Origin: Arachidicoccus terrestris
Lineage (GTDB): Bacteria; Bacteroidota; Bacteroidia; Chitinophagales; Chitinophagaceae
Reading direction: 5' to 3'
DNA length: 64,000 nucleotides
Assembly (NCBI RefSeq): GCF_020042345.1
Contig: NZ_CP083387.1
Coordinates: forward strand, 930,001 to 994,000
Made by a program: the position numbers and the translations under genes. Shown piece by piece: positions 2,168 to 62,474 of the stretch. Within the stretch, counting starts at the first letter, position 1, and every line of letters starts with the position of its first letter. The notes below the pieces were generated by a model. That model was not told where the DNA came from, did not search any database, and saw only the letters and a list, made by a program, of their open reading frames with translations.

Positions 2168-2168
2168 A

Positions 2169-9050: not shown

Positions 9051-9069
9051 TTAGGTTAACCAAATTTAA
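9051..9069 (+). promoter_or_regulatory. DtxR/MntR-like operator upstream of the Nramp gene
   Basis: TTAGGTTAACCAAATTTAA matches 15 of 19 positions of the classical DtxR-type box as I know it (TTAGGTTAGCCTAACCTAA). Its core TTnGGTTAACCnAA is a perfect dyad. It sits just upstream of the -7 element and would cover the -33 region. Repression by a metal-sensing DtxR/MntR-family protein is inferred; no such regulator gene lies in the window. Confidence 0.55.
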
Positions 9070-9074
9070 AGCTG

Positions 9075-9082
9075 TAATTTTG
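9075..9082 (+). promoter_or_regulatory. Bacteroidota -7 element of the Nramp gene
   Basis: TAATTTTG fits TAnnTTTG. Transcription would begin near 9089, giving a leader of about 44 nt before the ATG at 9133. The -33 element is not clear, and its expected position is occupied by the putative metal-regulator box. Confidence 0.5.
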
Positions 9083-9132
9083 TAGGTCAATACATAAAAA
9101 ACATTAGAAGCACCTCTTTGCGGGCAAGCACT

Positions 9133-31944: not shown

Positions 31945-32145
31945 ATTCTTTGTTCGGTTTAGATCTGTTATGGGTTTTAGCTGGCACATTCGCTAAAATA
32001 AGCAATCTAATGCAAATCGTAAAAATATCCTTGCAGCTGGCTTCCCGGCACCTGCACCCTAAAAATAACAAGAGCAGCCAAATCTATGCGGTTGCACGAT
32101 TTGACTGCCCTGTTATTTCTCTACCACTACCGTTCGGGATACCTT

Positions 32146-34044: not shown

Positions 34045-34092
34045 AATGTTTATTTTTTGCGTTCCGCCGTTCTTGATGGGAACAACTGTGGG

Positions 34093-37323: not shown

Positions 37324-37719
37324 AGGGTCAAATAATAATGGATGAAGAAATAGATTTACCAAAGCAACAATTTCTCTTAAATGTTAAGAGATGGATAAAG
37401 ATAGAGAAAGTCTATTGAAATTTAACAGAATTTAAGAAAATAGCAACCGATTGCAATTTTTTGCATAGCAGATCTGAATAATATATCTGGCCAAGGTTTG
37501 CGAGAAAGAAAAAAGAACATTCGGCCACAATCAAGCCATAATGATGCTATCTAAAAAGAAGCAGAGAAAGTAAAGAAAAGTCCGCACCTCATAATCGGTC
37601 TAAAAACCGGCTGGATTTTTTTGAAAAAAAATCAAGAAAATGCAAAATTTGCATCGAATAGATAGATTAATTCATAGTTATTAATCGTTAGATTGACACT
37701 CGAAATATCAGCAGCCTTT
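37324..37719. promoter_or_regulatory. Upstream region of susC with dyad elements
   Basis: No gene is seen in this A+T-rich 396 bp. Three dyads stand out. ATGCAAAATTTGCAT (37640-37654) is a perfect 7-1-7 palindrome. TGCAATTTTTTGCA (37452-37465) is a related 5-4-5 dyad. TCTCTTAA-ATG-TTAAGAGA (37373-37391) is an 8-bp hairpin in the susC leader. The first two share TGCAA half-sites and are candidate operators for a local regulator. No good TAnnTTTG was found on the minus strand. Confidence 0.4.
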
Positions 37720-47322: not shown

Positions 47323-47462
47323 CACTCGCATAGTATATAATTTTCGGGATGAATTAAAGGTCAGATCTTACCAGAGAAATTATACGTTCTATACAACCCT
47401 TCTTTGTTTAATGGATGTTCCTGTGTGAATTGCACGGCAATTTGTATTTTCGTTGCATTAAG

Positions 47463-49871
47463 ATGAAAAGCAAATTTAATTCATACCGGAATCTGGCCCT
47501 ATGCCTTATAGGTGCACTATTTTTTACCGGCACATTTGCGCAGCTATCCGGTACATTCCCCGATAAAGATGATATCACCTGGCATAGCTTCAGCAAGGAT
47601 GCATCCGGTTCCATGCCCTGTGGTGGCGGAGATATCGGCTTGAATGTCTGGGTGGAGAAAGGAGATGTACTGTTCTACATCGCCAAAAGCGATGCATTTG
47701 ATGAAAATAACACCTTACTTAAACTGGGAAGAGTCCGTATTCACTTATCTCCCAACCCATTCACCAACGCAGCCTTCTCACAAACCCTGCACCTGGCCGA
47801 TGGGAGCATTTATATAAAAGGCATGCTCGATCACCAACCCGTGCAGCTCCATTTATGGGTCGATGTCCACCGGCCGGTTATCCACGGAAGCGTCCGGTTT
47901 ACAGGTATCGGACACAAGATCCGTTCCCATGCATTTAATGCGCAGATAACTTATGAGTGCTGGCGGGATAAAGACCATATTGTCAAAGGCAAAGAAAACA
48001 ATCAGAACTCCTATAAATTCGGGCCTCAGGGTATCATTAAAGTCAAAAAAGATCATATTGAACTGGGTCAGGATAAGGAGTTGGGGGGTCAGGTTGTTTT
48101 TTATCATGCCAACACGGGCCCTACTGTATTTGACGCTGCCGTCCACCAGCAAGGGTTAGATAGCATCAAATCTGAATTATATGATCCGCTGGGTGGCAGG
48201 GTCTCCGGAGGTATCCTTTATGCTAAACAGTTAGTTCCGGCCGGCACCTTAACAGGAAAATATCAAAGCACACCCTTTACCGGATATCAATTAAAGACGG
48301 TCAAGCCCGTACATACCCTGCAGTTCACTGTTGCTTTGGCAGTCAGCCAGTCTTCAGATCTGGCCGGCTGGACATCAGATTTAAAAAAATCAGAGCGGAC
48401 GTCCAGCCAAATTAAAACAGACTGGACCGCGACCAGGTCCTGGTGGGCATCATTTTGGGACCGCAGTTTTATTGATATTAATCCATCGCAGAAAAAAGAC
48501 AGCATAAACACACAGGCCTGGACCATGGGCAGGAACTATCAGCTATTCCGGTATATGCTGGGCTGCAATGCCTATGGTAAATTCCCTACCAAGTTCAATG
48601 GAGGGCTTTTTACTTATGATCCGGTATTGGTGGACAGTAGCTATCCGTTTACACCGGATTTCAGAAACTGGGGCGGTGGCACCTTTACCGCGCAGAACCA
48701 GCGATTAGTGTACTATCCTATGCTCAAAAGCGGGGACTATGATCTGATGCAATCCAGCTTTGACTTCTATAACCGGCTCTTAAAAACCGCAGAGCTTCGG
48801 TCAAAGACCTACTGGCACCATAAGGGCGCTTCCTTCACCGAGCAGCTGGAGAACTTTGGCCTACCCAACCCCTCTGAATATAGCTGGAAAAGACCTGCCG
48901 GTTTTGATCCCGGCATGCAGTATAATGCCTGGCTCGAATATGAGTGGGATACGGTTTTAGAGTTCTGTGACATGATCCTGCAGTCCAGACTTTATAACGG
49001 CACAGATATCCGGCGGTATATGCCGCTGATCAAAAGTTGTCTCAGTTTCTTTGATGAGCACTATCAATATCTGGCAAAAAAAAGAGGGGCCAGGATACTG
49101 GACGGTCATGGCCATCTGATCCTGTATCCCGGCTCAGCTGCAGAAACCTATAAACTGGCCTATAACGCCTCCTCCACCGTTGCCGCCTTATCCACGGTAA
49201 CTAAACATCTTTTAGCACTTCCGGAAGGTATGCTCGACTCATCTGATCGAAGTTATTTCCGTCAGTTGGCCAAGAGAATTCCACCGCTTGCATTTGGGGA
49301 GATCGACCATCACAAAGTTATTTCGCCGGCCGTTACCTGGGCCAGGATCAACAATGTGGAATCCCCGCAGCTCTATCCGGTATTTCCATGGGGCATCTTC
49401 GGCGTTGGTAAACCAGATCTGGACGTGGGTCTGAACACCTGGCGGTTAGATTCCAGTGTCATCAAAAACAGAAGCTTTGTAGGCTGGAAACAGGATAATA
49501 TATTCGCGGCGCGTCTGGGGCTCAGTCGGGAAGCATTTCAGCTCACGATGGACAAATTTAGAGATGGCCCCCGGAGATTCCCCGCTTTCTGGGGTCCGGG
49601 ATTTGACTGGGTTCCGGATCATAACTGGGGCGGATCGGCCATGATCGGTCTTCAGGAAATGCTGCTTCAGACTCGTGGGGACAGTATACTGCTTTTCCCG
49701 GCCTGGCCCGGGGAAATTGACGTACACTTTAAATTACATGCACCTCATCATACCACCGTAGAAGCCTGGTTAAAAAACGGACAGCTCAGTCGGCTGACGG
49801 TTTTACCTAAGTCCAGGGAAAAAGATGTGATCAACTATCTACATCTGTCAAGCACCATTTTGGAAAATTAA
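47463..49871 (+). CDS. DUF5703 / six-hairpin glycosidase-like secreted protein
   Basis: An 802-residue exported protein (signal ending GTFA-Q). The N-terminal DUF5703 domain is recognised by SGSMPCGGGDIGLNVWVEKG, DVLFYIAKSDAFDENN and LKLGRVRIHLSPNPF. The C-terminal half has the alternating helices of an alpha/alpha toroid as in GH95-type glycosidases (GPGFDWVPDHNWGGSAMIGL). This suggests action on a fucosylated or rhamnose-bearing glycan, but no characterised member is known to me. I start at the ATG at 47463. It is a single gene converging with iclR and may feed the RhaT operon beyond. Confidence 0.8.
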   Translation: MKSKFNSYRNLALCLIGALFFTGTFAQLSGTFPDKDDITWHSFSKDASGSMPCGGGDIGLNVWVEKGDVLFYIAKSDAFDENNTLLKLGRVRIHLSPNPFTNAAFSQTLHLADGSIYIKGMLDHQPVQLHLWVDVHRPVIHGSVRFTGIGHKIRSHAFNAQITYECWRDKDHIVKGKENNQNSYKFGPQGIIKVKKDHIELGQDKELGGQVVFYHANTGPTVFDAAVHQQGLDSIKSELYDPLGGRVSGGILYAKQLVPAGTLTGKYQSTPFTGYQLKTVKPVHTLQFTVALAVSQSSDLAGWTSDLKKSERTSSQIKTDWTATRSWWASFWDRSFIDINPSQKKDSINTQAWTMGRNYQLFRYMLGCNAYGKFPTKFNGGLFTYDPVLVDSSYPFTPDFRNWGGGTFTAQNQRLVYYPMLKSGDYDLMQSSFDFYNRLLKTAELRSKTYWHHKGASFTEQLENFGLPNPSEYSWKRPAGFDPGMQYNAWLEYEWDTVLEFCDMILQSRLYNGTDIRRYMPLIKSCLSFFDEHYQYLAKKRGARILDGHGHLILYPGSAAETYKLAYNASSTVAALSTVTKHLLALPEGMLDSSDRSYFRQLAKRIPPLAFGEIDHHKVISPAVTWARINNVESPQLYPVFPWGIFGVGKPDLDVGLNTWRLDSSVIKNRSFVGWKQDNIFAARLGLSREAFQLTMDKFRDGPRRFPAFWGPGFDWVPDHNWGGSAMIGLQEMLLQTRGDSILLFPAWPGEIDVHFKLHAPHHTTVEAWLKNGQLSRLTVLPKSREKDVINYLHLSSTILEN

Positions 49872-49884: not shown

Positions 49885-50673
49885 CTAGGAATCCAATCCC
49901 AGATTCACGGAAATCCTCCGAGCGGTCTCTTTGGCCTTAGCAGCTATTTCCTCCAGCCCTACCTCTTCTTTTAGCTGAACAGATAAAATGGCAATGGTGA
50001 GACAGGCTACCGCTTTATCACCATTCATGACCGGGACGGTAACATCCATGATGCCTTTTGCCAGATCACTGCCTGTTATATAGTGCCCGTCCGCCTTGAT
50101 TTCCTGTAAAGAGCTGATAAACTTCTGCTGCTTTCTCAAAGGATATTCATTAAAGAGCTCATTTCTTTTTAAAAGTTCCAGCCGCTCATTTTCGTCCATG
50201 TAGGCCAGCAAGACTTTTCCTGAAGCTGTCAGCATCACCGGGAAAGTACTTCCCTCTTCAATAGATAAGGCAATGGGCACCGGGCTCCTGGATTGAGAGA
50301 CGACAATCAGCTTATCCTGATAGAGGACACCCAGGTGGCAGGACTGTTTGATGCTGTCGGCCAGGTCATCCATAGGATAATGAGAGGCGCGCCTGATTTC
50401 ATCTATCGGGGAATGGCGGTGTGATAAATTAAATAATTTCAGGGACTGTTTGTATTTGCCGGATATTTCGTCCCGCAGCAAATATCCCCGTTGCTCCAGG
50501 CAAACCAGCATTCGATAGATCTCACTGGGGTTCTTATCGATTCCCTGGGCGATATCTGCCTGAGAAAGCGGTCTGCCTTCTGCAGATATAAATTCCAGAA
50601 TATCAAGCCCCTTTTCCAGGGCGGGTGCGTGATATTTCACTTCAGCTTCGTCGACAGTCTTCTTTTTTACCAT
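49885..50673 (-). CDS. IclR-family transcriptional regulator
   Basis: A 262-residue regulator. The winged helix lies at residues 15-75 (ALEKGLDILEFISAEGRPLS, then IAQGIDKNPSEIYRMLVCLE). The IclR effector domain follows, with YQDKLIVVSQS, GSTFPVMLTASGKVLLAYM and the YITGSDLAKGIMDVTVPVM region that binds small organic acids in relatives. I start at the ATG at 50673 (MVKKKTVDE); the longer frame to 50751 would run through the promoter region. It is divergent from the seven-gene operon at 50806 and is its probable regulator. Confidence 0.92.
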   Translation of the reverse strand: MVKKKTVDEAEVKYHAPALEKGLDILEFISAEGRPLSQADIAQGIDKNPSEIYRMLVCLEQRGYLLRDEISGKYKQSLKLFNLSHRHSPIDEIRRASHYPMDDLADSIKQSCHLGVLYQDKLIVVSQSRSPVPIALSIEEGSTFPVMLTASGKVLLAYMDENERLELLKRNELFNEYPLRKQQKFISSLQEIKADGHYITGSDLAKGIMDVTVPVMNGDKAVACLTIAILSVQLKEEVGLEEIAAKAKETARRISVNLGLDS

Positions 50674-50685
50674 TCTTTCTATCAG

Positions 50686-50735
50686 TTGTTCGTATATAAA
50701 TTGTGAATTTACGCCAATAAGGGCGAACAAAAATA
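50686..50735. promoter_or_regulatory. Inverted repeat and possible -7 element of iclR
   Basis: TTGTTCG (50686-50692) and CGAACAA (50724-50730) form an inverted repeat with a 31-bp spacer upstream of the iclR start. The right half overlaps a minus-strand -7 candidate, TATTTTTG (complement of 50728-50735). This is a plausible operator for the IclR protein, but the spacing is wide. Confidence 0.35.
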
Positions 50736-50752
50736 ATATTTTTAAGGCCATT

Positions 50753-50805: not shown

Positions 50806-51945
50806 TTGGCTCAGATTTTATTAAAAGGGATTACCTGGGATCATAGTCGGGGATATACGCCGCTTGTTGCTACTGCTCAGCGGTTTATGGAACGGCATAA
50901 AGAAGTAGAAATTATTTGGAGCAAACGTAGCTTGCAGGATTTTGCCGACAAACCGATTGGCGGGTTGGCGGAGGAGTATGATTTACTCATCGTTGATTAT
51001 CCATGGATTGGATACAGTGCCGAAGAGAAGCAATTTCTTCCCCTAAATACCTATTTACCGGGCAGTTTTTTAAAAGATCAGCTGCAGGGCAGCGTGGGCG
51101 CCTCTTATGAGAGCTACACCTATTCAGGGCAGACCTGGGCAATACCTATGGATGCGGCTACACCTGTAGCCAGTTACCGGCCGGATATTTTTCAGAAAAA
51201 TAACTGGGCGATGCCCAAAAACTATGAAGACGTTTTGGATCTGGCAGCCCGGGGACAAGTCATATTGCCCGGCATTCCGGTAGACACATTGATGAACTTC
51301 TACATGTTTTGTTGCTCACTCGGTGAAGCGCCTTTTCAAATGGACAACAAAGTCATCAGTGAAGCCACCGGATTACAGGCGCTCACTTTATATAAATCAC
51401 TTACAGACAAAGTTGACCCGGTTTGCTTTACACTCAACCCCATCAAAGTCTACGAACAACTTTCTACAACGGACGCGTACAGTTATTGCCCCTTCGCCTA
51501 TGGCTACTCCAACTATGCCCGACCGGGGTTTTCGGACCATGTGCTTCATTTTGCCGATTTAGTCAACCTGAATGGCCAACCGCTGATCTCGACAATCGGC
51601 GGTACGGGGCTGGCAGTTTCCCAGCACTGTCAATATAAATCAATTGCGGTCAAATACCTGGAATACGCCACTCACCCTGAGACGCAGGCACATCTCTATT
51701 TTGAGGCCGGTGGACAGCCTGCGCATTTAAGTGCCTGGACATCCCGCGCCAATAATGCGGCCACACATCAGTTTTTTCAACGCACTTTACCCACACTCAG
51801 GCGCGCCTATCTGCGGCCGCGATATAAGGGTTATATCCACTTTCAGGATAATGCCGGAGATATCATCCGGTCATATCTTATGAGCGGCGGCAATCCAAAA
51901 AATGTATTATCTCAGTTAGATCAACTCTTAAATCATTCCCATTAA
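50806..51945 (+). CDS. Solute-binding-protein-like protein without signal peptide (A)
   Basis: A 379-residue protein with the type 2 periplasmic-binding fold of ABC sugar-binding proteins (family 1). Recognisable parts are KGITWDHSRGYTPLVATAQR, WAIPMDAATPVASYRPDIF and YLEYATHPETQAHLYFEAGG. Unlike exported binding proteins it has no signal peptide or lipobox, and a stop codon lies in frame just upstream (50788-50790). Translation appears to begin at TTG, since the first internal ATG (50887) would remove a core strand. No ABC permease or ATPase is present. It opens the operon and overlaps the next gene by 1 nt (TAATG). It may act in the cytoplasm as a substrate or acyl carrier; this is inference. 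Confidence 0.82.
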   Translation: MAQILLKGITWDHSRGYTPLVATAQRFMERHKEVEIIWSKRSLQDFADKPIGGLAEEYDLLIVDYPWIGYSAEEKQFLPLNTYLPGSFLKDQLQGSVGASYESYTYSGQTWAIPMDAATPVASYRPDIFQKNNWAMPKNYEDVLDLAARGQVILPGIPVDTLMNFYMFCCSLGEAPFQMDNKVISEATGLQALTLYKSLTDKVDPVCFTLNPIKVYEQLSTTDAYSYCPFAYGYSNYARPGFSDHVLHFADLVNLNGQPLISTIGGTGLAVSQHCQYKSIAVKYLEYATHPETQAHLYFEAGGQPAHLSAWTSRANNAATHQFFQRTLPTLRRAYLRPRYKGYIHFQDNAGDIIRSYLMSGGNPKNVLSQLDQLLNHSH

Positions 51946-53078
51946 TGGCTCCATTAGAAAATCTGATTGTACTGGAATTCTGTCAATATATGTCTGGTCC
52001 GTCTGCCGGACTGAGAATGGCAGACCTGGGAGCAACTGTCATTAAAATAGAAAGACCGGGCAGCGGGGAAGGCGGCAGGCAATTAGCGATAAAAAACCTG
52101 TTTGCCGGTAATAACAGCGTACTGTTCCATACTATAAACCGCAATAAACAATCGTACAGTGCCAATCTAAAAAACCCGGAAGATCTGGAGAGGATCAAAA
52201 AGCTGATCGGGAAGGCTGATGTACTCATCCATAATTTTCGGCCCGGTGTCATGGAAAAACTGGGACTGGGCTATAAAGAGGCAGCAGCCCTGAATGCACG
52301 GCTTATATACGGAGAGATCAGTGGTTACGGGAAGCAAGGTAAATGGAAACATAAACCGGGACAAGATCTGCTATTGCAGTCTGTATCAGGATTAACCTGG
52401 CTTTCAGGCAACAAGAATGATCCGCCCATCCCGTTCGGATTATCTATCGCTGATTATATGTGCGGTACGCATCTGGTTCAGGGCGTTCTCGCTGCGCTCG
52501 TCGCAAGAGCAAAAACAAATAAAGGCATGTTGGTAGAAGTCAATTTACTGGCTTCGCTTATAGATTTCCAGTTCGAAGTGATCACGACCCATTTAAACGA
52601 CGGCGGCAGGTTACCTGACAGAGCCGCGTGGGGCAATGCGCATGCCTATCTGAGTGCTCCTTACGGTGTCTATGCTACCAAAGACGGCTATCTGGCCATG
52701 GCTATGGAGAATCTGGAATATTTAACGAGGGCGCTGGCGATCCCCCACATTAAGCCGTTAATCAAAGACGGCTTTGCCCATCGGGAGGAGATCATGGAAG
52801 CTATTGCAGGCGCCCTGAAAAAGCAAACGACTAAGCAGTGGCTGGCCATCTTTGAACCGCAGGATATCTGGTGTGCAGAAGTGCAAAATTATCATCAATT
52901 TACAGGGCACCCCGGTTACCAGGCCATGCGCCTGGAGCAGGAGATCCAGCTTCCTGACGGAATGATGCTGACAACGACGCGCTGCCCGATCCGCATTGAC
53001 GGAGAATTATTTACCAGCATGCGCCCTGGCCCTGAAGTCGGAGCGCATAACAGGATAGTGGAAACAAACTTATTATAA
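51945..53078 (+). CDS. Class III CoA-transferase (CaiB/BaiF), paralogue 1
   Basis: A 377-residue CoA-transferase that would move CoA from an acyl-CoA to a carboxylic acid. The family course is complete: LEFCQYMSGPSAGLRMADLG, TVIKIERPG, NRNKQSYSANLKNPED and HNFRPGVMEKLGLGY. The catalytic aspartate is D141 in KPGQDLLLQSVSGL. It overlaps the previous gene by 1 nt and is followed after 30 bp by a close paralogue. Class III enzymes act as homodimers of interlocked rings; two adjacent paralogues could form a heterodimer or act on two substrates. Confidence 0.93.
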   Translation: MAPLENLIVLEFCQYMSGPSAGLRMADLGATVIKIERPGSGEGGRQLAIKNLFAGNNSVLFHTINRNKQSYSANLKNPEDLERIKKLIGKADVLIHNFRPGVMEKLGLGYKEAAALNARLIYGEISGYGKQGKWKHKPGQDLLLQSVSGLTWLSGNKNDPPIPFGLSIADYMCGTHLVQGVLAALVARAKTNKGMLVEVNLLASLIDFQFEVITTHLNDGGRLPDRAAWGNAHAYLSAPYGVYATKDGYLAMAMENLEYLTRALAIPHIKPLIKDGFAHREEIMEAIAGALKKQTTKQWLAIFEPQDIWCAEVQNYHQFTGHPGYQAMRLEQEIQLPDGMMLTTTRCPIRIDGELFTSMRPGPEVGAHNRIVETNLL

Positions 53079-53108
53079 TATTAAAACCCTTATTTAACCT
53101 AGCAGCAG

Positions 53109-54278
53109 ATGAATAAACCCTTGGACGATATATTGGTAGTGGATTTCAGCCAATTTCTTTCTGGTCCTTCAGCCAGCCTCCGGCTCGCTGACCTGGGCGC
53201 CAGGGTAATAAAGATAGAAAGACCTGTAACAGGTGATATCTCCAGACACATGTATATTTCCGATGTAGACATGAATGGAGCTTCCTCTGTCTTTCATGCG
53301 ATTAACCGTAACAAAGAAAGTTATTCGGCCGATCTCAAAAACCCGGATGACCTGGCCAGGATTTTATCGCTGGTTCAAAAAGCAGATATCGTGATGCACA
53401 ATTTCCGGCCGGGCGTCATGGAACGATTAGGGTTGGATTATGCCACCGTAAAAAATATCAACAACTCCGTTATCTATGGAGAGATCAGCGGTTATGGCAC
53501 TGAAGGCCCCTGGAAAGACAAGCCCGGGCAGGATCTGCTCTTGCAGGCACTCTCAGGCATGTGCTATCTGAGTGGCAATGGCGATATGGCACCGGTTCCA
53601 ATGGGAATATCTCTTGTCGATATAGCCACTGGCGGGCATCTGGTACAAGGTATTCTGGCCTGTCTGGTGCGCCGGGCCGTTACCGGCCAGGGAGGCCTGG
53701 TGCAGGTCAGTATGCTGGAATCCGCCTGCGACCTTCAGTTTGAATCAATTACCTGTTATTTGAACGATGGACGTGAACTTCCCGAGCGAGGATTAAAAAA
53801 TAATGCCAATGCATACTTGGGAGCGCCTTATGGTATCTACAAAACAGCTGACGGGTATTTAGCGCTCGCCATGACGGCTGTGGACCAGCTGGGCGCACTG
53901 ATTAATTGTAAAGAATTATGTAAATACACCGACACACAGCAATGGTTTACGCTTCGTGAGGAAATAAAAGCTATATTGAGTGCGCATTTACTTACAGCCG
54001 TAACGCGCCATTGGCTGGACATACTGGAGCCTGCCGATATCTGGTGCGCAGAAGTATTAAACTGGCGGGACCTGTTGGCAGATACGGCGTTAAACAATAA
54101 TAAAATCACTCAGTCAGTGACCATGCAGGATGGCTACACTTTTCAGACGACACGTTGTCCGATCAATTTAAACGGAGAGGCACTACTGTCAGACAAAGGC
54201 ACACCGGCACTCGGTCAGGACAACCAGATAATTGACGGCACCCTCCTTAAGGAAAATATGAAGGGCCTATTAAAATAA
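53109..54278 (+). CDS. Class III CoA-transferase (CaiB/BaiF), paralogue 2
   Basis: A 389-residue paralogue of the preceding gene, similar along the whole length (VDFSQFLSGPSASLRLADLG, NRNKESYSADLKNPDD, HNFRPGVMERLGLDY). The catalytic D142 in KPGQDLLLQALSG is kept. Both end with a QTTRCPIN or TTTRCPIR segment. The two differ most around residues 40-60, where the acyl substrate or CoA loop is expected, which hints at different specificities. It is followed after 6 bp by the second binding-protein-like gene. Confidence 0.93.
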   Translation: MNKPLDDILVVDFSQFLSGPSASLRLADLGARVIKIERPVTGDISRHMYISDVDMNGASSVFHAINRNKESYSADLKNPDDLARILSLVQKADIVMHNFRPGVMERLGLDYATVKNINNSVIYGEISGYGTEGPWKDKPGQDLLLQALSGMCYLSGNGDMAPVPMGISLVDIATGGHLVQGILACLVRRAVTGQGGLVQVSMLESACDLQFESITCYLNDGRELPERGLKNNANAYLGAPYGIYKTADGYLALAMTAVDQLGALINCKELCKYTDTQQWFTLREEIKAILSAHLLTAVTRHWLDILEPADIWCAEVLNWRDLLADTALNNNKITQSVTMQDGYTFQTTRCPINLNGEALLSDKGTPALGQDNQIIDGTLLKENMKGLLK

Positions 54279-54284
54279 TTTACT

Positions 54285-55529
54285 ATGCGGGCAGACCAGT
54301 TTCATTTTGCGATACGAAAATTCGAGCCATTTGAAACCTTTCTCAAATTGCGCTGGGAGGAATACTGCCAATTGAGCGGCTGCAAACTGCAGTTAATCGC
54401 TGAGGCGATGGACCTGCCAGAGTTACACGCGAGCCTGCTGACAGAAAATGGGCTCAAAAACGGCAAATGGGATCTTGCGCTGGTCAGCTCTGACTGGATG
54501 AGTGAAGCCTGTGACCGCGAAGCGGTACGCCCCGTAGAATCGTTGATATCCGACAAGGATTTTTTTAATGCCTGGCCCTCCTCTTTACTCAGGTCACAAA
54601 AACATCAGAACAAACACTATGGCGTGCCATTTCACGATGGCCCGGAATGTCTGATCTACCGTAAAGACCTTTTTGAAGATCCGGCACACTGCACGGCATT
54701 TCTTGCTCGTTACGGTTACATATTAGAACCGCCCAAAAACTGGCAGAGCTTTCATGATGTGGCCCGTTATTTCCAGCAGGCTGATACAAATCTATATGGT
54801 ACCGCGCTGGCGGCCTTTCCCGATGGCCATAATGCGGTCTATGATTTTTGCATTCAGGCGTGGACAAGATCAGGAGAGTTTATGCAACCGGACGGCAATG
54901 TGAATTTTCAATGCACCGCCATTGAGGATGGCCTGTCTTTTTACAGAAAACTGAGTCACGATAGCTCAGCCTTACATAGAGATTCACGGGAGATGGATTC
55001 CGTAAAACTGGGCATGGCCTTTACCCGTGGCGAGCTGGCTATGATGATCAACTGGTTTGGATTTGCGACCTATGCTGCGCTTCTTAAGAACAGTCCGGTA
55101 GCCGGGAAAATAGGTATTGCACCTATCCCCCATCAACCCAATGCACAGCCCGTAGCACCGAATTCCTACTGGGTATACGCAGTCGGCAGCGGCAGCACAC
55201 ATGCGGCCGTTGCGATGGATTTTATCCAGTTTGCGACACAACCGTTAAATGATGTAGCGCTGACGCTTGGCGGTGGTATCGGATGTAGAAAATCCACCTG
55301 GAGTGATGACAGCGTCAATGAACAAATACCTTTTTTTAACGACCTCGAGTCATTACATGATCATGCCAGGGAACTACCGGATCTGGCCCAGTGGCCTGCC
55401 ATTGCGGGGATCATTGATGAGATCATGATCAAAGTAGCTAGTACCACACAGCCGATAGCGGAAATCCTTTTGGCCGCACAGTCAGCGGTAGAAGAACTTC
55501 AAAAAAATACACAGCCAAAAACAGTTTAG
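54285..55529 (+). CDS. Solute-binding-protein-like protein without signal peptide (B)
   Basis: A 414-residue protein with the family 1 binding-protein fold. Characteristic parts are WDLALVSSDWMSEACDREAV, HYGVPFHDGPECLIYRKDLF, FTRGELAMMINWFGFATYAA and NSYWVYAVGSGSTHAAVAMD. The N-terminus MRADQFHFAIRKFEPFETF is charged and directly enters the fold, so there is no export signal. It is a distant relative of gene A at 50806, and the two flank the CoA-transferase pair. It ends with TAG immediately followed by the ATG of the next gene. No transporter partner exists nearby. The role is unknown. Confidence 0.82.
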   Translation: MRADQFHFAIRKFEPFETFLKLRWEEYCQLSGCKLQLIAEAMDLPELHASLLTENGLKNGKWDLALVSSDWMSEACDREAVRPVESLISDKDFFNAWPSSLLRSQKHQNKHYGVPFHDGPECLIYRKDLFEDPAHCTAFLARYGYILEPPKNWQSFHDVARYFQQADTNLYGTALAAFPDGHNAVYDFCIQAWTRSGEFMQPDGNVNFQCTAIEDGLSFYRKLSHDSSALHRDSREMDSVKLGMAFTRGELAMMINWFGFATYAALLKNSPVAGKIGIAPIPHQPNAQPVAPNSYWVYAVGSGSTHAAVAMDFIQFATQPLNDVALTLGGGIGCRKSTWSDDSVNEQIPFFNDLESLHDHARELPDLAQWPAIAGIIDEIMIKVASTTQPIAEILLAAQSAVEELQKNTQPKTV

Positions 55530-56654
55530 ATGCAAATCGACAACCATTCAAATATAGAACTAAGCATAACAGACCAGGTGAAGGTAAAACTAAGAACCTC
55601 CCCTCCCGAGCAGCCGGTACCTATCATCATTATCGGTGCCGGCGGCATCGTCCGGGATGCCCATCTGCCTGCCTACAAGGCGGCAGGGCTGCCCGTATTT
55701 GGCATTGTTAACCGTACAGTGGCAAAGGCGCAGGGTCTGGCTGCTGATTTTGATGTACCTAACGTATTTGCAACGATTGAGGAAGCTGTTGCTAAAGCAC
55801 CTGAACAGGTCGTATATGATATCGCGCTGATGCCGGACCAGTATATGCATACCCTCGCTGCATTACCGGACGGCGCTACAGTACTTATTCAAAAACCAAT
55901 GGGCGAAACACTCGCAGAGGCAAGTGCACTGCTTACGCTGTGCCGGCAAAAAAAATTCAAGGCAGCCATCAATTGTCAGCTCCGATATGCGCCTTATGTA
56001 CACGTAGCGCGCCAAATGATCGAACAAGGATTGCTTGGTGATATCTATGATATGGAAGTCCGCCTGACAACCTATACACCCTGGGAAATATTTCCGCATG
56101 TAGCGGTCAATAAAAGACTGGAAATACTCTATCACTCTATTCATTACATGGACCTGATCCGAAGTTTTCTGGGGGAACCGGCCAGTATTGTCAGTAAAAC
56201 TTTCGGCCATCCCAAGAAACAATTTTCTTCTACAAGAACAACCACCATCCTGGAATATGGCCCTAATAAACGAGCGGTCATCAATACGAACCACGATCAT
56301 AATTTTGGCCCGGACCAGCAGGAAAGTTTTATCAAATGGGAAGGCACCCGAGGTGTCATAAAGGCCAAAATGGGCTTATTGCTGGACTACCCCAAAGGCA
56401 CTGCCGATCAGTTTGACTACTGTCTTCTAGAGGAAGGACATCCGCCGGCCTGGCAACAACTGGATCTCAAAGAGACCTGGTTTCCGGATGCATTCAGAAA
56501 TATTATGTTCGCGCTTCAAAGGTTCCGGGAAGGCAGCGACCATTTTCTTTCTAATCATGTTGAAGACGTCTATCACACGATGGAACTGGTGGAAGCCGCC
56601 TATCAGTCCAACAGGCTGGATGGGCGCCATGTGCCGGTTTCCGCGCTGATTTAA
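55530..56654 (+). CDS. Gfo/Idh/MocA-family oxidoreductase in the operon
   Basis: A 374-residue NAD(P)-dependent dehydrogenase-type protein. The Rossmann motif is PVPIIIIGAGGIVRDAHLPA. The EKP motif reads LIQKPMGETLAEA, with glutamine in place of glutamate but the catalytic lysine kept. The C-terminal domain has YHSIHYMDLIRSFLGEPASI, with the expected histidines. The first 28 residues are a polar extension. It starts at the base after the preceding stop, so translation is coupled. It would oxidise or reduce a sugar-like or hydroxy-acid substrate before or after CoA activation. Confidence 0.9.
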   Translation: MQIDNHSNIELSITDQVKVKLRTSPPEQPVPIIIIGAGGIVRDAHLPAYKAAGLPVFGIVNRTVAKAQGLAADFDVPNVFATIEEAVAKAPEQVVYDIALMPDQYMHTLAALPDGATVLIQKPMGETLAEASALLTLCRQKKFKAAINCQLRYAPYVHVARQMIEQGLLGDIYDMEVRLTTYTPWEIFPHVAVNKRLEILYHSIHYMDLIRSFLGEPASIVSKTFGHPKKQFSSTRTTTILEYGPNKRAVINTNHDHNFGPDQQESFIKWEGTRGVIKAKMGLLLDYPKGTADQFDYCLLEEGHPPAWQQLDLKETWFPDAFRNIMFALQRFREGSDHFLSNHVEDVYHTMELVEAAYQSNRLDGRHVPVSALI

Positions 56655-56676
56655 ATCATTTTAACCCATTAATTCT

Positions 56677-57135
56677 ATGCATATACATCAACAGTTCTAC
56701 GAAGATTACCATATCGGCGATAGCCGGACCAGTCTGGGACGGACGATAACGGAAACAGATATAGTATTACATGCCGGACAGACAGGCGACTTCTTCCCGC
56801 ACCATATGGATGCGGAGTGGTGCCAAACGCAGCCCTTCGGCAAAAGGATCGCGCATGGCACACTTATCTTTAGTGTTGCAATCGGGCAAACAGCTACCCA
56901 GATCAATCCGGAAGCGTTTTCCAAAGGCTACGACCGTTTACGCTTTATCAAACCCGTGTTTATCGGAGATACCATTCATACCAAAGTGACCATCACAGAA
57001 GCCGCCCAGGATAAAAAACCCGGTTATGGTAAGATAGTAGAACACGTGGAGGTATTTAATCAGCATAATATACTGGTTATGGTTTGTGACCACATATTGC
57101 TGGCCAGACAAAAAACAATCACTTCAAATTCATAA
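56677..57135 (+). CDS. MaoC-type hot-dog hydratase/dehydratase
   Basis: A 152-residue single hot-dog enzyme of the MaoC/(R)-specific enoyl-CoA hydratase family. The hydratase 2 motif is intact: [20 protein letters not shown] with catalytic D38 and H42, followed by [15 protein letters not shown]. The enzyme adds or removes water on an acyl-CoA. With the two CoA-transferases it makes acyl-CoA chemistry in this operon likely, for example on a branched or dicarboxylic acyl-CoA. The gaps to its neighbours are 22 and 3 bp. Confidence 0.92.
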
Positions 57136-57138
57136 ATT

Positions 57139-58215
57139 ATGATGGCACCTAATCCGATTGAAGGCATTGGCTTGCACGCCATTGGCGCCACTTCTGCCTC
57201 GACCTGTTATCTGCCTTTTCATAAGACCCGTAAATGGTCCTGGGTTTCTTACTGGCTGGTCCAGTCATTATTTGCCTGGATTCTGACGCCGCTTATTCTT
57301 GCATTAGTTACGATTCCTGATTTCTTCGGCATTATCAGTCAGGCGCCATCCGGCGTGCTTTGGTTAACCTTTTTGTTTGGCGGCTTGTATGGATTTGGCG
57401 GCATGTCCTTTGGCTTCGCCACGCGCTATATAGGCTACTCCCTTACCTATGCCATTTCAATTGGAATTTCCGCGGTACTGGGCACGATCCTGCCACTGCT
57501 GATGGAGGGAACAATTGGAGCCTACTTCCGTCAGCCAGGCGGCCAGACGATCGGCATCGGCATGATGATCGCTATTATCGGTGTCGGACTTTGTGGCTGG
57601 GCTGGATTTAGAAAAGAACAGGAAATTAAAACGAAGACCCCGGCCGCACAGACCCAATCATTCAATATGCGGATCGGGCTATTGCTGGCAATCGCTGCCG
57701 GCATTCTCTCCGGCATATTCAATATCGCCCTCGAATATGGCCAACCCATATCTGATATGGCTGCCAAAAAAGGCGCCGGCATTTTTGAGGGAAATGCCAA
57801 GCTAATTATCGCTACCAGTGGTTGCTTTGTCGTAAATTTTATCTGGTTTACCGTTCTCGGCCTAAAACAAAAACGATTTAAAGAATTCTCCGCAGAAAAC
57901 TACAAGCCGGAAGTTGAGGCGGCCCGACGCCCAAGTGGCGTCCCGCAATTAATTAAAAATCTTTTGTGGTCTTCTCTGGGCGGCATTCTGTGGTGCATGC
58001 AATTCTTCTTCTATGGGCTAGGTCACGTTAAAATGGGAAAACTTCAATTCGCCAGCTGGGTCATACATATGTCTATGCTGATATTCTTTAGCTTTCTGGT
58101 GGGACTTGCAATGAAAGAGTGGAAAAATGTCTCACGCAAAACCTATGCTACACTTCTGACAGCCCTCGTTACCCTGGCCATCTCTTTTGTTATCATGAGC
58201 TATGCCGGCATGTAA
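57139..58215 (+). CDS. RhaT-type sugar/proton symporter
   Basis: A 358-residue inner-membrane protein with ten hydrophobic segments and the L-rhamnose-proton symporter (RhaT) pattern: GLHAIGATSASTCYLPFHKT, SYWLVQSLFAWILTPLIL, GGMSFGFATRYIGYSLTYAI and YFRQPGGQTIGIGMMIAIIG. In Bacteroidota this family imports several deoxysugars and sugar acids, so rhamnose is only one candidate. It is the last gene of the operon, and its presence suggests that the substrate enters by proton symport rather than by an ABC system. Confidence 0.92.
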   Translation: MMAPNPIEGIGLHAIGATSASTCYLPFHKTRKWSWVSYWLVQSLFAWILTPLILALVTIPDFFGIISQAPSGVLWLTFLFGGLYGFGGMSFGFATRYIGYSLTYAISIGISAVLGTILPLLMEGTIGAYFRQPGGQTIGIGMMIAIIGVGLCGWAGFRKEQEIKTKTPAAQTQSFNMRIGLLLAIAAGILSGIFNIALEYGQPISDMAAKKGAGIFEGNAKLIIATSGCFVVNFIWFTVLGLKQKRFKEFSAENYKPEVEAARRPSGVPQLIKNLLWSSLGGILWCMQFFFYGLGHVKMGKLQFASWVIHMSMLIFFSFLVGLAMKEWKNVSRKTYATLLTALVTLAISFVIMSYAGM

Positions 58216-58810: not shown

Positions 58811-59233
58811 ATGAAATCAATTGACAATGGCATAGCGATATTCCGGGACATTTCTGTCCACTTAACGGGTTTCACCTCTATGGAGTTAACAGGGACCGGG
58901 ATGCTGGAGACCTATTATCACGTCATGGTGAATAAAAATAACCTGGGCGTCGTGGAAGATTTTCTGGCAGCTGCTGCAAAGATCCTGGCTGAAAACAGCA
59001 AGGATCCGGCAAAGCTAAGATCAGCGATCCTAAACAATCTCATGCCTGACGGGCTGTATAGCGGACTCGCCCAAAATATCATTACCATGTGGTATTTAGG
59101 CAGCTGGGTAAATGAAATCATCAGTCCTCAATCATACGTGCAGGGAATGATCTGGTCTGTTGCCAACGCGCACCCGCCCGGAGCCAAACAGCCCGGCTTT
59201 GCTTCCTGGAACGTAGCCCCTCCCCAGCTATAA
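58811..59233 (+). CDS. FAD-SLDH-type small subunit of a GMC dehydrogenase
   Basis: A 140-residue helical protein resembling the small subunits of membrane-bound sorbitol/fructose dehydrogenases (PF12318), which assist folding and export of the FAD subunit. The conserved course is SVHLTGFTSMELTGTGMLET, then IITMWYLGSWVNE. The known relatives carry a Tat signal before the LTG motif; here only about 18 residues (MKSIDNGIAIFRDI) precede it and no twin arginine is present. It is 26 bp upstream of the GMC gene, so it is very likely its partner, acting in the cytoplasm. Confidence 0.75.
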   Translation: MKSIDNGIAIFRDISVHLTGFTSMELTGTGMLETYYHVMVNKNNLGVVEDFLAAAAKILAENSKDPAKLRSAILNNLMPDGLYSGLAQNIITMWYLGSWVNEIISPQSYVQGMIWSVANAHPPGAKQPGFASWNVAPPQL

Positions 59234-59259
59234 TCATCCATTTTCAAAATAATTAAACA

Positions 59260-61233
59260 ATGACGCAGAACAAGACTTACGATGTAGTCATCGTCGGATC
59301 TGGTATATCAGGCGCTGTTATTGCCAAAACCCTGACGCAGGCAGGTAAGCGTGTTTTATTGCTGGAAGCCGGATTAACGGCAGGCATGAATTTAGACCGC
59401 AATGGCAATTACCTCAATTATGTAGACTACCTGAATACCTTTTATCAGGCCGAGATAAAAGTACCGAATTCACCCTATCCCAATATAAAAGACGCACCTT
59501 CAATCAATGTAATAGACATGCAGCCCATCACTGCAACCAATAGTCCAAGTACGACGGGCTATCTCGTTCAGGCCGGGCCACTGCCATTTGCGAGTGATTG
59601 TTTGCGCGGCCCCGGCGGCACTACCCTGCATTGGCTGGGATCCACTCCCCGGATGCTGCCCAATGATTTTAAAATGAAAAGCCTTTATGGAGTTGGGGTG
59701 GACTGGCCGATCAGTTATGAGGACCTGATGCCTTACTATGAAATGGCGGAATTTGAAATAGGCGTCTCAGGCAATGTCGACCAGATCAAATGGCCGGAAG
59801 CTAGCACAGAAAAGCAGCAAGTAGCACTAAAAAACAAATATTACGGAAAAAACTATGTCTTTCCGATGCAGGAGATCCCGACCAGTTACCTGGATAGTAT
59901 ATTCACCGGGCTGGTCAAAGAAATCAACAACAACGATCCGGTAAAGTTCAACGGAAAGAAAGCGACCATAGGTTTCTCTACAACGCCCCAAGGCAGAAAT
60001 TCTGTGCCTAACCCGCAATATCCCTATCGGGACATCCTGTGGAACCCCAAGAAGAAAAAACTGGAGTTCCAGACGAAAAAGCGCTGGAATATTCAACTAA
60101 ACGGTGTCGTAGATATCCCCGAGGATGAAAAATACGAGTATCTGCCGGTGGGATCCACCTGGGATCCCAACACGGGCCTGAGATGTGAAGGCAATGCCAG
60201 TTGTGTGCCCATATGCCCTGTACAGGCTAAATACAATGCTTTAAAAACACTATTCAAGGCTGACCGTACAAAAACAACCATCAAGACACAGTCTGTTGCT
60301 TCCAAAGTGCTGTATGATGAAAAGACAAAAGAAATCACGGGTATCGAATACAAGACCTATAATACGGCCAATTCACTCACCTATGAGACGCATGTAGCCA
60401 AAGGTAAGATATATGTTCTGGCCGCAAGTGCTATAGAGAATGCAAAAATATTACTTGCATCGGGCATTGCTAATTCCAGCGATCAGGTCGGGCGCAATTT
60501 AATGGACCATTTATGCCTTTTGACCTGGGGATTACTGCCGGAGAAAGGCTATCCGTACCGCGGTCCGGGCTCAACTACCAATATGTCTTCATTCAGAGAC
60601 GGGCCTTTCCGCAAAGAGCATGCCGCCTGGATCTGCCCCATAGACAACTGGGGCTGGGCCTGGCCCGTTTTTTCACCGGGATCTGATCTGGCCGTCGCCT
60701 TAAGTAAAAACATATTTGGTCAGGAACTGCGGGCGCTGCTTGCCGATTCAATACCCAGACAATTATTACTTCATTATGAATGTGAGCAGGCACCAGAGCC
60801 TGGTAACCGGGTCACCATCGATCCTAACTACCGTGATGCGATCGGCAATTACCGGCCCGTGATTCATTACGACGCATCTGATTATATGAAAAAAGCGTTC
60901 AAGGCTGCAAAAGACCTGAACAACCAGATATTCAAGGACGCCGGCATTCAGGACTATACGGTCTACAGCCCGACCATTGCCCAGGACTATGTAGGGTATG
61001 AAGGGCAAGGATATAATTTCTGGGGAGCCGGTCATATTGTCGGCACGCACCGGATGGGGAGCTCTAAAAAAGATTCCGTGGTGAATGCGGACTGCAGAAC
61101 CTGGGATCATGACAACCTCTACCTGGTCGGCTGCGGTAACATGCCTACGCTCGGTACTTCCAATCCGACACTTACCACAACCGCACTTACTTTTAAAGCG
61201 GCTGAAGCTATTCTTAAACAATTAGAAAAATAA
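59260..61233 (+). CDS. GMC-family FAD oxidoreductase with Fe-S motif
   Basis: A 657-residue flavoenzyme of the glucose-methanol-choline family. The FAD-binding motif is VVIVGSGISGAVIAK at residues 9-23. The catalytic pair is in HIVGTHRMG (H592/H597) and SNPTLTT (N635). C309, C315 and C319 in CEGNASCVPICPVQAKYNA follow the C-X5-C-X3-C spacing that binds a 3Fe-4S cluster in FAD glucose dehydrogenase. The known enzymes oxidise sugars or polyols and pass electrons through the cluster to a cytochrome c subunit. No cytochrome gene follows here, and neither this protein nor its small subunit has a visible export signal. The substrate and electron acceptor are unknown. Confidence 0.9.
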   Translation: MTQNKTYDVVIVGSGISGAVIAKTLTQAGKRVLLLEAGLTAGMNLDRNGNYLNYVDYLNTFYQAEIKVPNSPYPNIKDAPSINVIDMQPITATNSPSTTGYLVQAGPLPFASDCLRGPGGTTLHWLGSTPRMLPNDFKMKSLYGVGVDWPISYEDLMPYYEMAEFEIGVSGNVDQIKWPEASTEKQQVALKNKYYGKNYVFPMQEIPTSYLDSIFTGLVKEINNNDPVKFNGKKATIGFSTTPQGRNSVPNPQYPYRDILWNPKKKKLEFQTKKRWNIQLNGVVDIPEDEKYEYLPVGSTWDPNTGLRCEGNASCVPICPVQAKYNALKTLFKADRTKTTIKTQSVASKVLYDEKTKEITGIEYKTYNTANSLTYETHVAKGKIYVLAASAIENAKILLASGIANSSDQVGRNLMDHLCLLTWGLLPEKGYPYRGPGSTTNMSSFRDGPFRKEHAAWICPIDNWGWAWPVFSPGSDLAVALSKNIFGQELRALLADSIPRQLLLHYECEQAPEPGNRVTIDPNYRDAIGNYRPVIHYDASDYMKKAFKAAKDLNNQIFKDAGIQDYTVYSPTIAQDYVGYEGQGYNFWGAGHIVGTHRMGSSKKDSVVNADCRTWDHDNLYLVGCGNMPTLGTSNPTLTTTALTFKAAEAILKQLEK

Positions 61234-61238
61234 TTTAA

Positions 61239-62474
61239 ATGACTACTCCATTCAAGCAACCCAATGATTCAAAGCGCCAGAAGCTAATACCGGACAATGC
61301 ATTTCCTGAATTGCAGGCAAAAGCAGTTATGGCCGTCAATAGTATAGAAAGCGAAGTCGTCGCGGCCGACGATGATACGATATTTGATGCAAAACTGGCG
61401 GAGCTAAAACGCATGTTGCAAACAGCACTGGAATTAGAGCATTCAACCATCCCTCCTTATCTGTGTGCTCTATACTCTATAAAGCCAGGCACCAACCTGA
61501 CGGCTACCGAAATCATAAAAAGTGTCGTTTTGGAAGAGATGCTACATATGATCATGGTGGCCAATCTGATCAATGCTGTTAATGGCAAGCCATGTATCGG
61601 CGCCAAAGAAACGGATAACGACGGAAATTTCATTCCTGATTATCCTACCCCTTTACCCGGCAATGTAGACCCTAAGCTCAATGTCAGCCTCGCCTGCTTT
61701 TCAAAAGAGTCGATCAGGACATTCTGGAAAATCGAACATCCCGAGGGCGGGTTTGCCATCCCGGAAGAACTGTTGCAGAAAGGTGAGAAGAGCTACCCCT
61801 CTATCGGCGCATTTTATGAAGCATTGGTAAAAGATATCACGGCGCTGGAAACCATGGCCAGTCAAAAAGGCAAGACCATCTTCACCGGCGACCCCGCCAG
61901 ACAAGTCCCTTCCGAACATTATTACGGAGCCGGAGGCAAAATCATTACCGTATTTAACCTTGAAGATGCTAAAAACGTAATCGGAGAAATAGTCGGCCAG
62001 GGGGAAGGTACGCTCGGCTCTATCTTCTCCGAACCATTTAATCCCGGAGATGAAAGATACCTTATGTTTGGCCCCACCGTTGAAGAGTATGCCCATTACT
62101 TTAGGTTCAAGGAGGTGCACTATGAGCGCTACTACGCGCCCACCGATTCGGCACACAGGGACAGTCCCAACCACGGCCTGCCTACCGGAAAGAAGTTCGA
62201 AGTCGACTGGGAAGCGGTCTGTAAGATGAAACCGAATCCCAAAATGTCGGATTATCCCAAAGGCAGCCCACTGTATGAAAAAACATACGATTTTAATAAA
62301 ACCTATTCTGCCCTGCTGGATAATATTAACGAGGCCTGCAACGGCAGACCGGCCGCGCTGAGAGACGGCATCATGTTAATGTATGATCTGAAATATAAAG
62401 CGATCGAATTAATGAATATCCCCCGCGAAGACGGTTTAATGGCAGGGCCGAGTTTTGAATATGTAAAAAGCTAG
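61239..62474 (+). CDS. VioB/RebD-type ferritin-like domain protein
   Basis: A 411-residue protein with the ferritin-like domain (PF12902) of iminophenyl-pyruvate dimer synthases, which couple oxidised amino acids in violacein and rebeccamycin synthesis. Likely metal ligands are visible: E65/E67/H68 in ALELEHSTIPPYL, E99/E100 and H103 in VVLEEMLHMIM, and the later EEYAHYFRFKEVHYERYY. VioB itself is about 1000 residues, so this is the stand-alone domain type. It starts 5 bp after the GMC gene. A role as an iron-dependent oxidase working on the dehydrogenase product is possible but unproven. Confidence 0.85.
   Translation: MTTPFKQPNDSKRQKLIPDNAFPELQAKAVMAVNSIESEVVAADDDTIFDAKLAELKRMLQTALELEHSTIPPYLCALYSIKPGTNLTATEIIKSVVLEEMLHMIMVANLINAVNGKPCIGAKETDNDGNFIPDYPTPLPGNVDPKLNVSLACFSKESIRTFWKIEHPEGGFAIPEELLQKGEKSYPSIGAFYEALVKDITALETMASQKGKTIFTGDPARQVPSEHYYGAGGKIITVFNLEDAKNVIGEIVGQGEGTLGSIFSEPFNPGDERYLMFGPTVEEYAHYFRFKEVHYERYYAPTDSAHRDSPNHGLPTGKKFEVDWEAVCKMKPNPKMSDYPKGSPLYEKTYDFNKTYSALLDNINEACNGRPAALRDGIMLMYDLKYKAIELMNIPREDGLMAGPSFEYVKS

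Follow-up and report, generated by a model that had tools for sequence, protein, structure and literature searches.

Arachidicoccus terrestris, a soil-type bacterium, carries a compact operon of seven plus-strand open reading frames (ORFs) at positions 50806-58215 of the stretch analysed here, a 64,000-nucleotide window on contig NZ_CP083387.1 (positions 930,001 to 994,000 of the forward strand, or C1:930001-994000 of the complete 4.9 Mb genome). In order, the genes encode a solute-binding-protein fold (SBP1), two CoA-transferases (CoAT1 and CoAT2), a second solute-binding-protein fold (SBP2), a Gfo/Idh/MocA dehydrogenase, a MaoC-type hydratase and a RhaT-type symporter, and the Pfam matches of all seven exceed gathering scores. 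SBP1 and CoAT1 overlap by one base at 51945, and the remaining intergenic gaps measure, 5′ to 3′, 30, 6, 0, 22 and 3 bases. An IclR gene is divergently transcribed from the minus strand, and adjoining it, outside the coordinates of the original prediction, is a gene of glycoside hydrolase family 139 (GH139) at 47415-49871. Here, we consider the function of this module and its link to GH139. The features are:

47415-49871, plus strand: GH139-family (DUF5703) glycoside hydrolase, predicted 2-O-methyl-alpha-L-fucosidase (Pfam DUF5703_N, 345 bits; PDB 9HYQ, 9HMB)
49885-50673, minus strand: IclR-family regulator, divergent (Pfam IclR_C and HTH_IclR; relatives accompany the module in several further genera)
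50806-51945, plus strand: SBP1, probably cytosolic solute-binding-protein fold (Pfam SBP_bac_8/1; AlphaFold; no hydrophobic leader)
51945-53078, plus strand: CoAT1, class III (CaiB/BaiF) CoA-transferase, Bacteroidota-specific paralogue (Pfam CoA_transf_3; Asp170; tree)
53109-54278, plus strand: CoAT2, class III CoA-transferase (Pfam CoA_transf_3; Asp171)
54285-55529, plus strand: SBP2, probably cytosolic solute-binding-protein fold (Pfam; predicted structure; no hydrophobic leader)
55530-56654, plus strand: Gfo/Idh/MocA-family dehydrogenase (Pfam GFO_IDH_MocA; Lys122, His205)
56677-57135, plus strand: MaoC-type (R)-hydratase/dehydratase (Pfam MaoC_dehydratas; Asp38, His43)
57139-58215, plus strand: RhaT-family sugar-proton symporter (Pfam RhaT, 190.8 bits against a cut-off of 27; E 5e-56)

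The packed seven genes and divergent regulator described in the original prediction are borne out by the ORF list and Pfam, and the recurrence of the gene order elsewhere makes the arrangement more than chance. The IclR ORF had been listed as 49885-50751. A start at 50751 adds 26 residues without counterpart in the relatives compared; very probably, translation begins at the ATG at 50673. A search for IclR operators gave only AT-rich inverted repeats, of doubtful meaning. The functional locus also exceeds the bounds first reported, as it takes in the GH139 gene upstream (47415-49871) and hydrolase genes that begin about 2.5 kb beyond the window end.

Conservation of the module and its enzymes

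Using SBP2 as the probe, we gathered 55 loci from named genomes; all counts on these loci are conditional on SBP2. Most are from Pedobacter, and others come from Hymenobacter, Olivibacter, Parapedobacter, Desertivirga and Arachidicoccus, and from metagenome-assembled genomes (MAGs) titled Chloroflexi, Granulicella, Planctomycetota and Pirellulales. Of the named relatives found, Arachidicoccus species come nearest, with SBP2 identity of 65-66%. Among the 47 loci that reach 18 kb (8 shorter ones are omitted, among them L024 and L033 from planctomycetes, where SBP2 stands alone), SBP1, CoA-transferase and MaoC are each present in 47, and the dehydrogenase in 46. In sufficiently long Bacteroidota loci the order SBP1-CoAT1-CoAT2-SBP2-GFO-MaoC is kept, and the full gene set is present on Rufibacter and Persicobacter plasmids. 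Absence of conservation outside this genome had been named beforehand as grounds for refutation; the module is in fact widely conserved. SBP2 is rare, occurring in 3 of 195 genomes from the same family as the window's genome (E <= 1e-20) and in 5 of 395 genomes of its class (alignment search, E <= 1e-60). RhaT is an exchangeable part of the module: MFS transporters of one cluster occur in 42 of the 47 long loci, and RhaT in 3. The RhaT call of the original prediction is upheld by Pfam, and its exchangeability was overlooked. With the NCBIfam model for L-rhamnose RhaT, the window protein scores 310.4 against a cut-off of 468; it belongs to the same family, and specificity for rhamnose is not supported by the sequence.

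CoAT1 and CoAT2 match Pfam CoA_transf_3 with E values of 8e-93 and 6e-94 (312-316 bits) and are the sole class III CoA-transferases found in the complete genome. The Asp with a catalytic role in this class, as known from formyl-CoA transferase, is invariant: Asp170 of CoAT1 in 48 of 48 aligned rows and Asp171 of CoAT2 in 65 of 65, window included in both cases. The pairing itself was recognised previously; that it is a Bacteroidota duplication was not. This follows from the loci of Chloroflexota (L019, L054) and Acidobacteriota (Granulicella, L051) and most of the alphaproteobacterial loci seen, which hold one CoA-transferase each. These single enzymes of other phyla score higher with CoAT2 than with CoAT1. 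In a midpoint-rooted tree, the CoAT1 sequences (14 rows) group in a clade exclusive to Bacteroidota (support 100/100), Bacteroidota CoAT2 forms a separate clade (14 rows, 89/100), and the copies of other phyla fall outside both. CoAT2 shares 47-63% identity with ten compared relatives outside Arachidicoccus. In Hymenobacter sp. BT559 (L007), the two genes appear as one in-frame double CoA-transferase ORF, which we did not use as evidence, as the linker resembles gap read-through. In the Chloroflexota MAG locus L019, a corrinoid-type protein of the uroporphyrinogen-decarboxylase/B12-binding kind, known from demethylation, lies beside the CoA-transferase (L019:1-1926).

Paired class III CoA-transferases and a MaoC-fold hydratase are found together in other pathways, namely SmtAB (succinyl-CoA:malate) and the mesaconyl-CoA enzymes of the 3-hydroxypropionate bi-cycle, and benzylsuccinate BbsEF. 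The module resembles these in joining the same two enzyme types in one pathway. It differs in its sugar-type partners, its binding-protein folds, and its scores of 151.7 and 174.2 against 700 for the succinyl-CoA:mesaconate NCBIfam model. In fact, no named NCBIfam equivalog cut-off is reached by either CoA-transferase (best, 192 bits against 750), and readings of the pair as 3-hydroxypropionate bi-cycle or carnitine/oxalate CoA-transferases were rejected on this ground. The dehydrogenase and MaoC likewise fall below the NCBIfam cut-offs of named enzymes. The dehydrogenase keeps the glycine-rich nucleotide site and the catalytic Lys and His of the Gfo/Idh/MocA family, the latter as Lys122 and His205 (each in 62 of 63 aligned rows). 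In MaoC, Asp38 and His43, a dyad that belongs to the GDxxPxH motif of MaoC (R)-hydratases, are present in 63 of 63 rows. Its closest PDB chain is 4ffu (189 bits), presumably from Sinorhizobium meliloti.

A gene for a RuBisCO-like protein and one for a four-carbon-acid kinase adjoin the module in five loci (L011, L014, L027, L051, L062), a pairing that resembles D-apionate catabolism. Apiose or apionate catabolism was considered and set aside, and the RuBisCO-like gene is regarded as accessory, because only 9 of the 38 genomes counted, which bear the module or SBP2 and represent 38 of the 55 loci, have this gene.

Probably cytosolic binding-protein folds

The binding-protein folds named in the original prediction are confirmed; what it missed is that neither protein has an evident signal peptide. 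SBP1 and SBP2 match Pfam SBP_bac_8/SBP_bac_1 with E values of 2e-12 and 4e-20. AlphaFold models, built from alignments of 20 sequences for SBP1 and 21 for SBP2, have a mean pLDDT of 93.2 and 93.2, respectively. Among the 50 Foldseek matches listed for each, SBP1 aligns with sugar-binding ABC proteins at a query-length TM of 0.77-0.85, and SBP2 at 0.69-0.85, the closest listed being trehalose/maltose-binding proteins. No signal peptide or lipobox was seen in either by hydropathy and alignment (no signal-peptide predictor was used), suggesting that they are probably not uptake proteins. SBP1 has 94 invariant columns across 20 sequences from three phyla. Given this conservation, the lack of a leader, and a first strand that begins at residue 4-5 in both models, SBP1 and SBP2 are most likely cytosolic proteins under strong constraint.

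Could they be ordinary uptake receptors all the same, with overlooked signal peptides or ABC partners? Their clear sugar-binding-protein folds invite the idea, an N-terminal extension would fit in the reading frames of three SBP1 and five SBP2 relatives, and in Croceibacterium an SBP2 relative directly follows an ABC permease gene, though that transporter has its own receptor gene. Taken from a start ten residues ahead of the first conserved motif, however, N-terminal hydropathy peaks at 1.53 among 57 SBP1 relatives and 0.93 among 55 SBP2 relatives (0.99 and 0.07 for the window proteins), compared with 2.18-2.35 for three true ABC receptors of rhizobial operons. Together with the position of the first strand and the absence of an ABC permease from the window operon, this makes an uptake role highly improbable.

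Enzymes built on a type II periplasmic-binding-protein fold are known, MqnA/MqnD and THI5 among them, and SBP1 and SBP2 are like these in that such a fold is apparently used in the cytosol. Unlike MqnA/MqnD and THI5, they match SBP_bac_8/SBP_bac_1 and sugar receptors, and catalysis is a candidate role. To our knowledge, no use of sugar ABC receptor folds in the cytosol beside CoA-transferases has been described.

GH139 and RG-II chain-B-type hydrolases

The neighbouring GH139 provides the best clue to the substrate. The window protein scores 845 bits to 9HYQ and 329 bits to 9HMB, its sole PDB relatives at E <= 0.001, which establishes sequence kinship with BT0984/SDT91673.1. The two entries are the GH139 structures deposited by PMC12282258. 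That paper gives the characterised activity as 2-O-methyl-alpha-L-fucosidase on chain B of rhamnogalacturonan-II (RG-II), and describes GH139 as targeting 2-O-methyl-L-fucosides, a residue present in no other plant cell-wall complex glycan (PMC12282258). The catalytic acid E561, the base N412, and Q411, W683, D723, N729 and E641 correspond to E577, N428, Q427, W691, D731, N737 and E649 in the window protein, which thus retains its catalytic and -1 subsite residues and is predicted to be a 2-O-methyl-alpha-L-fucosidase. In Arachidicoccus ginsenosidivorans (L006), GH139 (709-3197) and the dehydrogenase (11367-12472) are each split over two reading frames, possibly reflecting broken genes or assembly errors.

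In 119 genomes of the Pedobacter genus, SBP2 is present in 51, GH139 in 53 and MaoC in 52. All 51 SBP2-positive genomes contain GH139, versus 2 of 68 SBP2-negative genomes (Fisher test, 1e-31, which ignores kinship and linkage), and in one of these two (G259) the gene is interrupted by stops. Hence, the association is near-exclusive in this genus. In the sample of 395 class genomes, GH139 is found in 5 of 5 SBP2-positive and 8 of 390 SBP2-negative genomes. This sample overlaps the first: one of the five is the window genome, and G407 and G501 match G288 and G314 place for place. Only G393 and G428, both of one genus, are new, and in them GH139 lies some 30-45 kb from SBP2. GH139 is also seen at the module in Arachidicoccus, Rufibacter and the Chloroflexota MAG locus L054.

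Other hydrolases accompany the module as well. BLAST clusters place GH106 in 44 and GH127 in 39 of the 47 long loci, and Pedobacter loci continue with GH78, GH2, LacZ-type GH2, GH106, GH127 and an esterase. In the window genome, relatives of GH127, GH106, LacZ, GH2 and GH78 are found at C1:996450-1012999, some 8 kb after the operon, from which they are separated by a GMC-oxidoreductase block. This block (58811-62474), between RhaT and the GH127/GH106 genes, holds a 140-aa ORF of unknown function, a GMC oxidoreductase and a ferritin-like protein, and looks like an insertion. RhaT and GH127 are adjacent in two Arachidicoccus relatives (L006, L056), unlike in the window. The backbone of chain B is Rha-Ara-Gal-AceA-Rha, and the set GH127, GH106, LacZ, GH2 and GH78 fits it. 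Pedobacter insulae GH106 gives 1165 bits to PDB 5mqm/5mwk (next, 481), and its GH127 gives 850 bits to 5mqo (next GH127 chain, 398); we take these entries to be BT0986 and BT1003 of the Bacteroides thetaiotaomicron RG-II system. The loci thus resemble those of B. thetaiotaomicron (BT0984, GH139; BT1003, GH127; and BT0986, GH106) in having homologous chain-B hydrolases at or near the operon. We know of no CoA-transferase/MaoC/binding-protein module with the Bacteroides RG-II loci, though B. thetaiotaomicron was not searched. A class III CoA-transferase was present in 5 of 14 control genomes, Bacteroides ihuae not among them. The polymer itself is reviewed in PMC12168206.

These hydrolases raise the possibility that the module degrades a different sugar of chain B, L-aceric acid (3-C-carboxy-5-deoxy-L-xylose), a branched acidic deoxysugar whose carboxylate would be a natural CoA acceptor. 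The match of the module-adjacent P. insulae GH127 to 5mqo is relevant here, as BT1003 is an aceric acid hydrolase according to PMC10850190 and PMC5698469. At E <= 1e-180, GH127 of this type occurs in 46 of the 51 SBP2-positive and 0 of the 68 SBP2-negative Pedobacter-genus genomes, and a GH127 of the same cluster lies in Granulicella locus L051, whose genome gave no GH139. Against this, 5 of the 51 SBP2-positive genomes lack such a GH127 at this threshold; in G322, GH127 is about 375 kb from SBP2, and GH139 about 8 kb; over the stretch seen, the Rufibacter and Chloroflexota L054 loci hold GH139 and lack a GH127 of this type; and the alphaproteobacterial versions of the module, described below, accompany L-fucose-type genes. 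Because GH139 is in 51 of 51 SBP2-positive genomes and GH127 in 46, we moved aceric acid from first to second place, and now consider it an unlikely rival. GH127 and GH139 seemed complementary in the first flanks, an artefact of cut flanks that is gone at the genome level.

A possible route for 2-O-methyl-L-fucose

Taken together, the data suggest to us, with about an even chance of being right, that the locus is the intracellular catabolic part of an RG-II side-chain-B system, most likely handling the rare sugar 2-O-methyl-L-fucose. GH139 would free the sugar outside the cytoplasm, and RhaT, or the MFS permease in Pedobacter, would import it. The Gfo/Idh/MocA dehydrogenase may then oxidise C1, giving 2-O-methyl-L-fuconolactone or -fuconate, and the CoA-transferase pair may convert the acid to its CoA ester. 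MaoC could remove water across C2-H/C3-OH to form 2-methoxy-enoyl-CoA, an enol ether, whose hydration would release methanol and leave a 2-keto-3-deoxy-fuconyl unit for entry into the ordinary oxidative L-fucose route. SBP1 and SBP2 would probably bind the sugar acid, lactone or CoA ester, working with the CoA-transferases, either as carriers or as new enzymes, for example in lactone opening or enol-ether hydration. We infer the substrate, the order of steps, the methanol release, the location of GH139 and the roles of the binding proteins from protein families and context. The C3-OH of L-fuconate has the (R)-3-hydroxyacyl-CoA configuration, the type that MaoC (R)-hydratases handle, and this stereochemistry counts in favour of the MaoC step.

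Several observations weigh against this proposal. Neither a lactonase nor any gene acting downstream of the keto-deoxy acid is found in the window operon, and we know of no MaoC enzyme acting as a C2 enol-ether hydratase. Because the loci hold other chain-B-type hydrolases too, linkage by itself cannot point to a single sugar. SBP2 is absent from 8 of the 13 GH139-positive class genomes, and thus GH139 does not require the module. Conversely, a search for GH139 in 17 module- or SBP2-bearing genomes or records outside the Pedobacter genus (thirteen of the 55 loci plus four plasmid records) gave no match in 6, namely Chloroflexota G207, planctomycete G217, Granulicella G229, and three plasmid records whose chromosomes were not included; the match in planctomycete G212 is distant. 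Finally, the Trp triad W162/W403/W490 of BT0984 is incomplete in the window protein, which has Phe202, W419 and W506. Of 13 aligned rows (the window's among them, several partial), 8 have Trp at the W162 position; according to PMC12282258, W162 is present in 45% of the family, and the W162A variant shows a 20-fold loss. The odds we assign to 2-O-methyl-L-fucose rest mainly on the genus sample and the GH139 identification.

A different substrate is also conceivable. Planctomycete locus L033, an 11.6 kb MAG contig, has an SBP2 relative at 8335-9588 adjoining a Gfo/Idh/MocA gene, without CoA-transferase or MaoC on this short contig, and such a case, like the GH139-free records, suggests that the family's use extends beyond a single polymer. 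Given the near-exclusive association with GH139 in the sampled genus, we consider another substrate or chemistry of the same general kind, such as another RG-II sugar or a lactone-CoA route, to be improbable.

Alphaproteobacteria offer a different view of the module, a reduced version of which sits in or near their L-fucose-type operons. On their plasmids, a CoA-transferase and a leaderless SBP1 relative lie beside an operon that includes IclR, L-rhamnose mutarotase, the same Gfo/Idh/MocA and MaoC genes, an enolase-superfamily gene, and a sugar ABC transporter whose dedicated receptor has a signal peptide. This operon type presumably serves L-fucose, as its annotations suggest. The oxidative (non-phosphorylating) L-fucose pathway of rhizobia and other bacteria employs fuconate dehydratase, a short-chain dehydrogenase/reductase (SDR) acting on keto-deoxy-fuconate (KDF), and an FAH-family hydrolase. 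Gene sets vary: L-fuconate dehydratase is annotated in several stretches, as is an FAH-family hydrolase; two stretches have fuconate dehydratase, SDR-type KDF dehydrogenase and FAH-family hydrolase together; and the Thalassospira stretch has neither L-fuconate dehydratase nor FAH-family hydrolase, some alphaproteobacterial stretches ending there. Jannaschia has SBP1 and CoA-transferase relatives without the IclR/ABC/mutarotase operon. S. meliloti 1021 pSymB matches five module genes (IclR, CoA-transferase, SBP1, dehydrogenase and MaoC), with the CoA-transferase/SBP1 pair about 18 kb from MaoC; stretch L067 of S. meliloti contains no CoA-transferase or SBP1. The pSymB CoA-transferase match falls in two reading frames (L084:9301-10451). 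Shinella SBP1 has relatives (E <= 1e-40) in 145 of 72,556 plasmid records, and Sinorhizobium accounts for 90 of the 145. In three alphaproteobacteria, the CoA-transferase/SBP1 pair is directly preceded by an additional, longer gene of the MaoC family (L065:11323-11979, L068:11425-11979 and L071:11395-11973).

The window operon shares with the oxidative L-fucose pathway its IclR, Gfo/Idh/MocA and MaoC genes, the alphaproteobacterial genomic place, the deoxysugar class and, probably, the end intermediate. A shared keto-deoxy-fuconyl intermediate would explain why alphaproteobacterial module genes lie near fuconate dehydratase, SDR and FAH-family genes. Unlike that pathway, the window operon contains no fuconate dehydratase, lactonase, KDF dehydrogenase/SDR or FAH-family hydrolase among its genes (ORFs and Pfam), and adds CoA-transferases and probably cytosolic binding proteins. 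Might the module instead use CoA to degrade an ordinary 6-deoxysugar, L-fucose or L-rhamnose, without any demethylation? Transporters of the RhaT or MFS type and two rhamnosidase families are present in the loci, L-rhamnose mutarotase and L-fuconate dehydratase occur in those of relatives, and the window genome has no RhaA (PF06134), other L-rhamnose isomerase types and L-fucose isomerase not having been searched. Alpha-L-fucosidases are found in the Croceibacterium, Halostagnicola and Persicobacter loci, and a GH29 alpha-L-fucosidase at 30466-31989 in the window. Yet a second route would be redundant in the two alphaproteobacterial operons that already hold a complete-looking fuconate route, and GH139 tracks the module throughout the SBP2-positive genomes of the genus sample. 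We therefore doubt that a plain 6-deoxysugar is the substrate. The GH29 gene itself lies with a SusC/SusD-type pair on the minus strand (30466-37362), a possible second locus related to fucose that lies upstream of the operon by about 13 kb.

The original prediction, a coherent catabolic operon in which a deoxysugar-type transporter and a sugar-type dehydrogenase are combined with acyl-CoA chemistry, is supported, though it missed the GH139 and RG-II-type hydrolases that point to a specific substrate. It also knew of no described pathway with this exact gene set. Likewise, our literature searches, which left preprints and most subscription papers outside their scope, found no published pathway with the gene set, nor any for 2-O-methylfucose or aceric acid catabolism. 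All the parts come from known families, and what is new is how they are combined, which substrate they likely serve, and receptors that are apparently cytosolic. A bolder and decidedly tentative proposal is that the module carries out CoA-dependent demethoxylation of O-methylated sugars, with two former ABC sugar receptors serving as cytosolic catalytic or substrate-presenting subunits. If true, this would represent a new way to remove a sugar methyl ether and a new use of the sugar-binding-protein fold. S. meliloti 1021, with its five relatives on pSymB, is amenable to laboratory work. Enzymes that take RG-II apart have been described, but the literature searched gave no account of how bacteria use its unusual sugars once freed, and a module that tracks the 2-O-methylfucosidase family is a testable candidate for the fate of one of the sugars they free.

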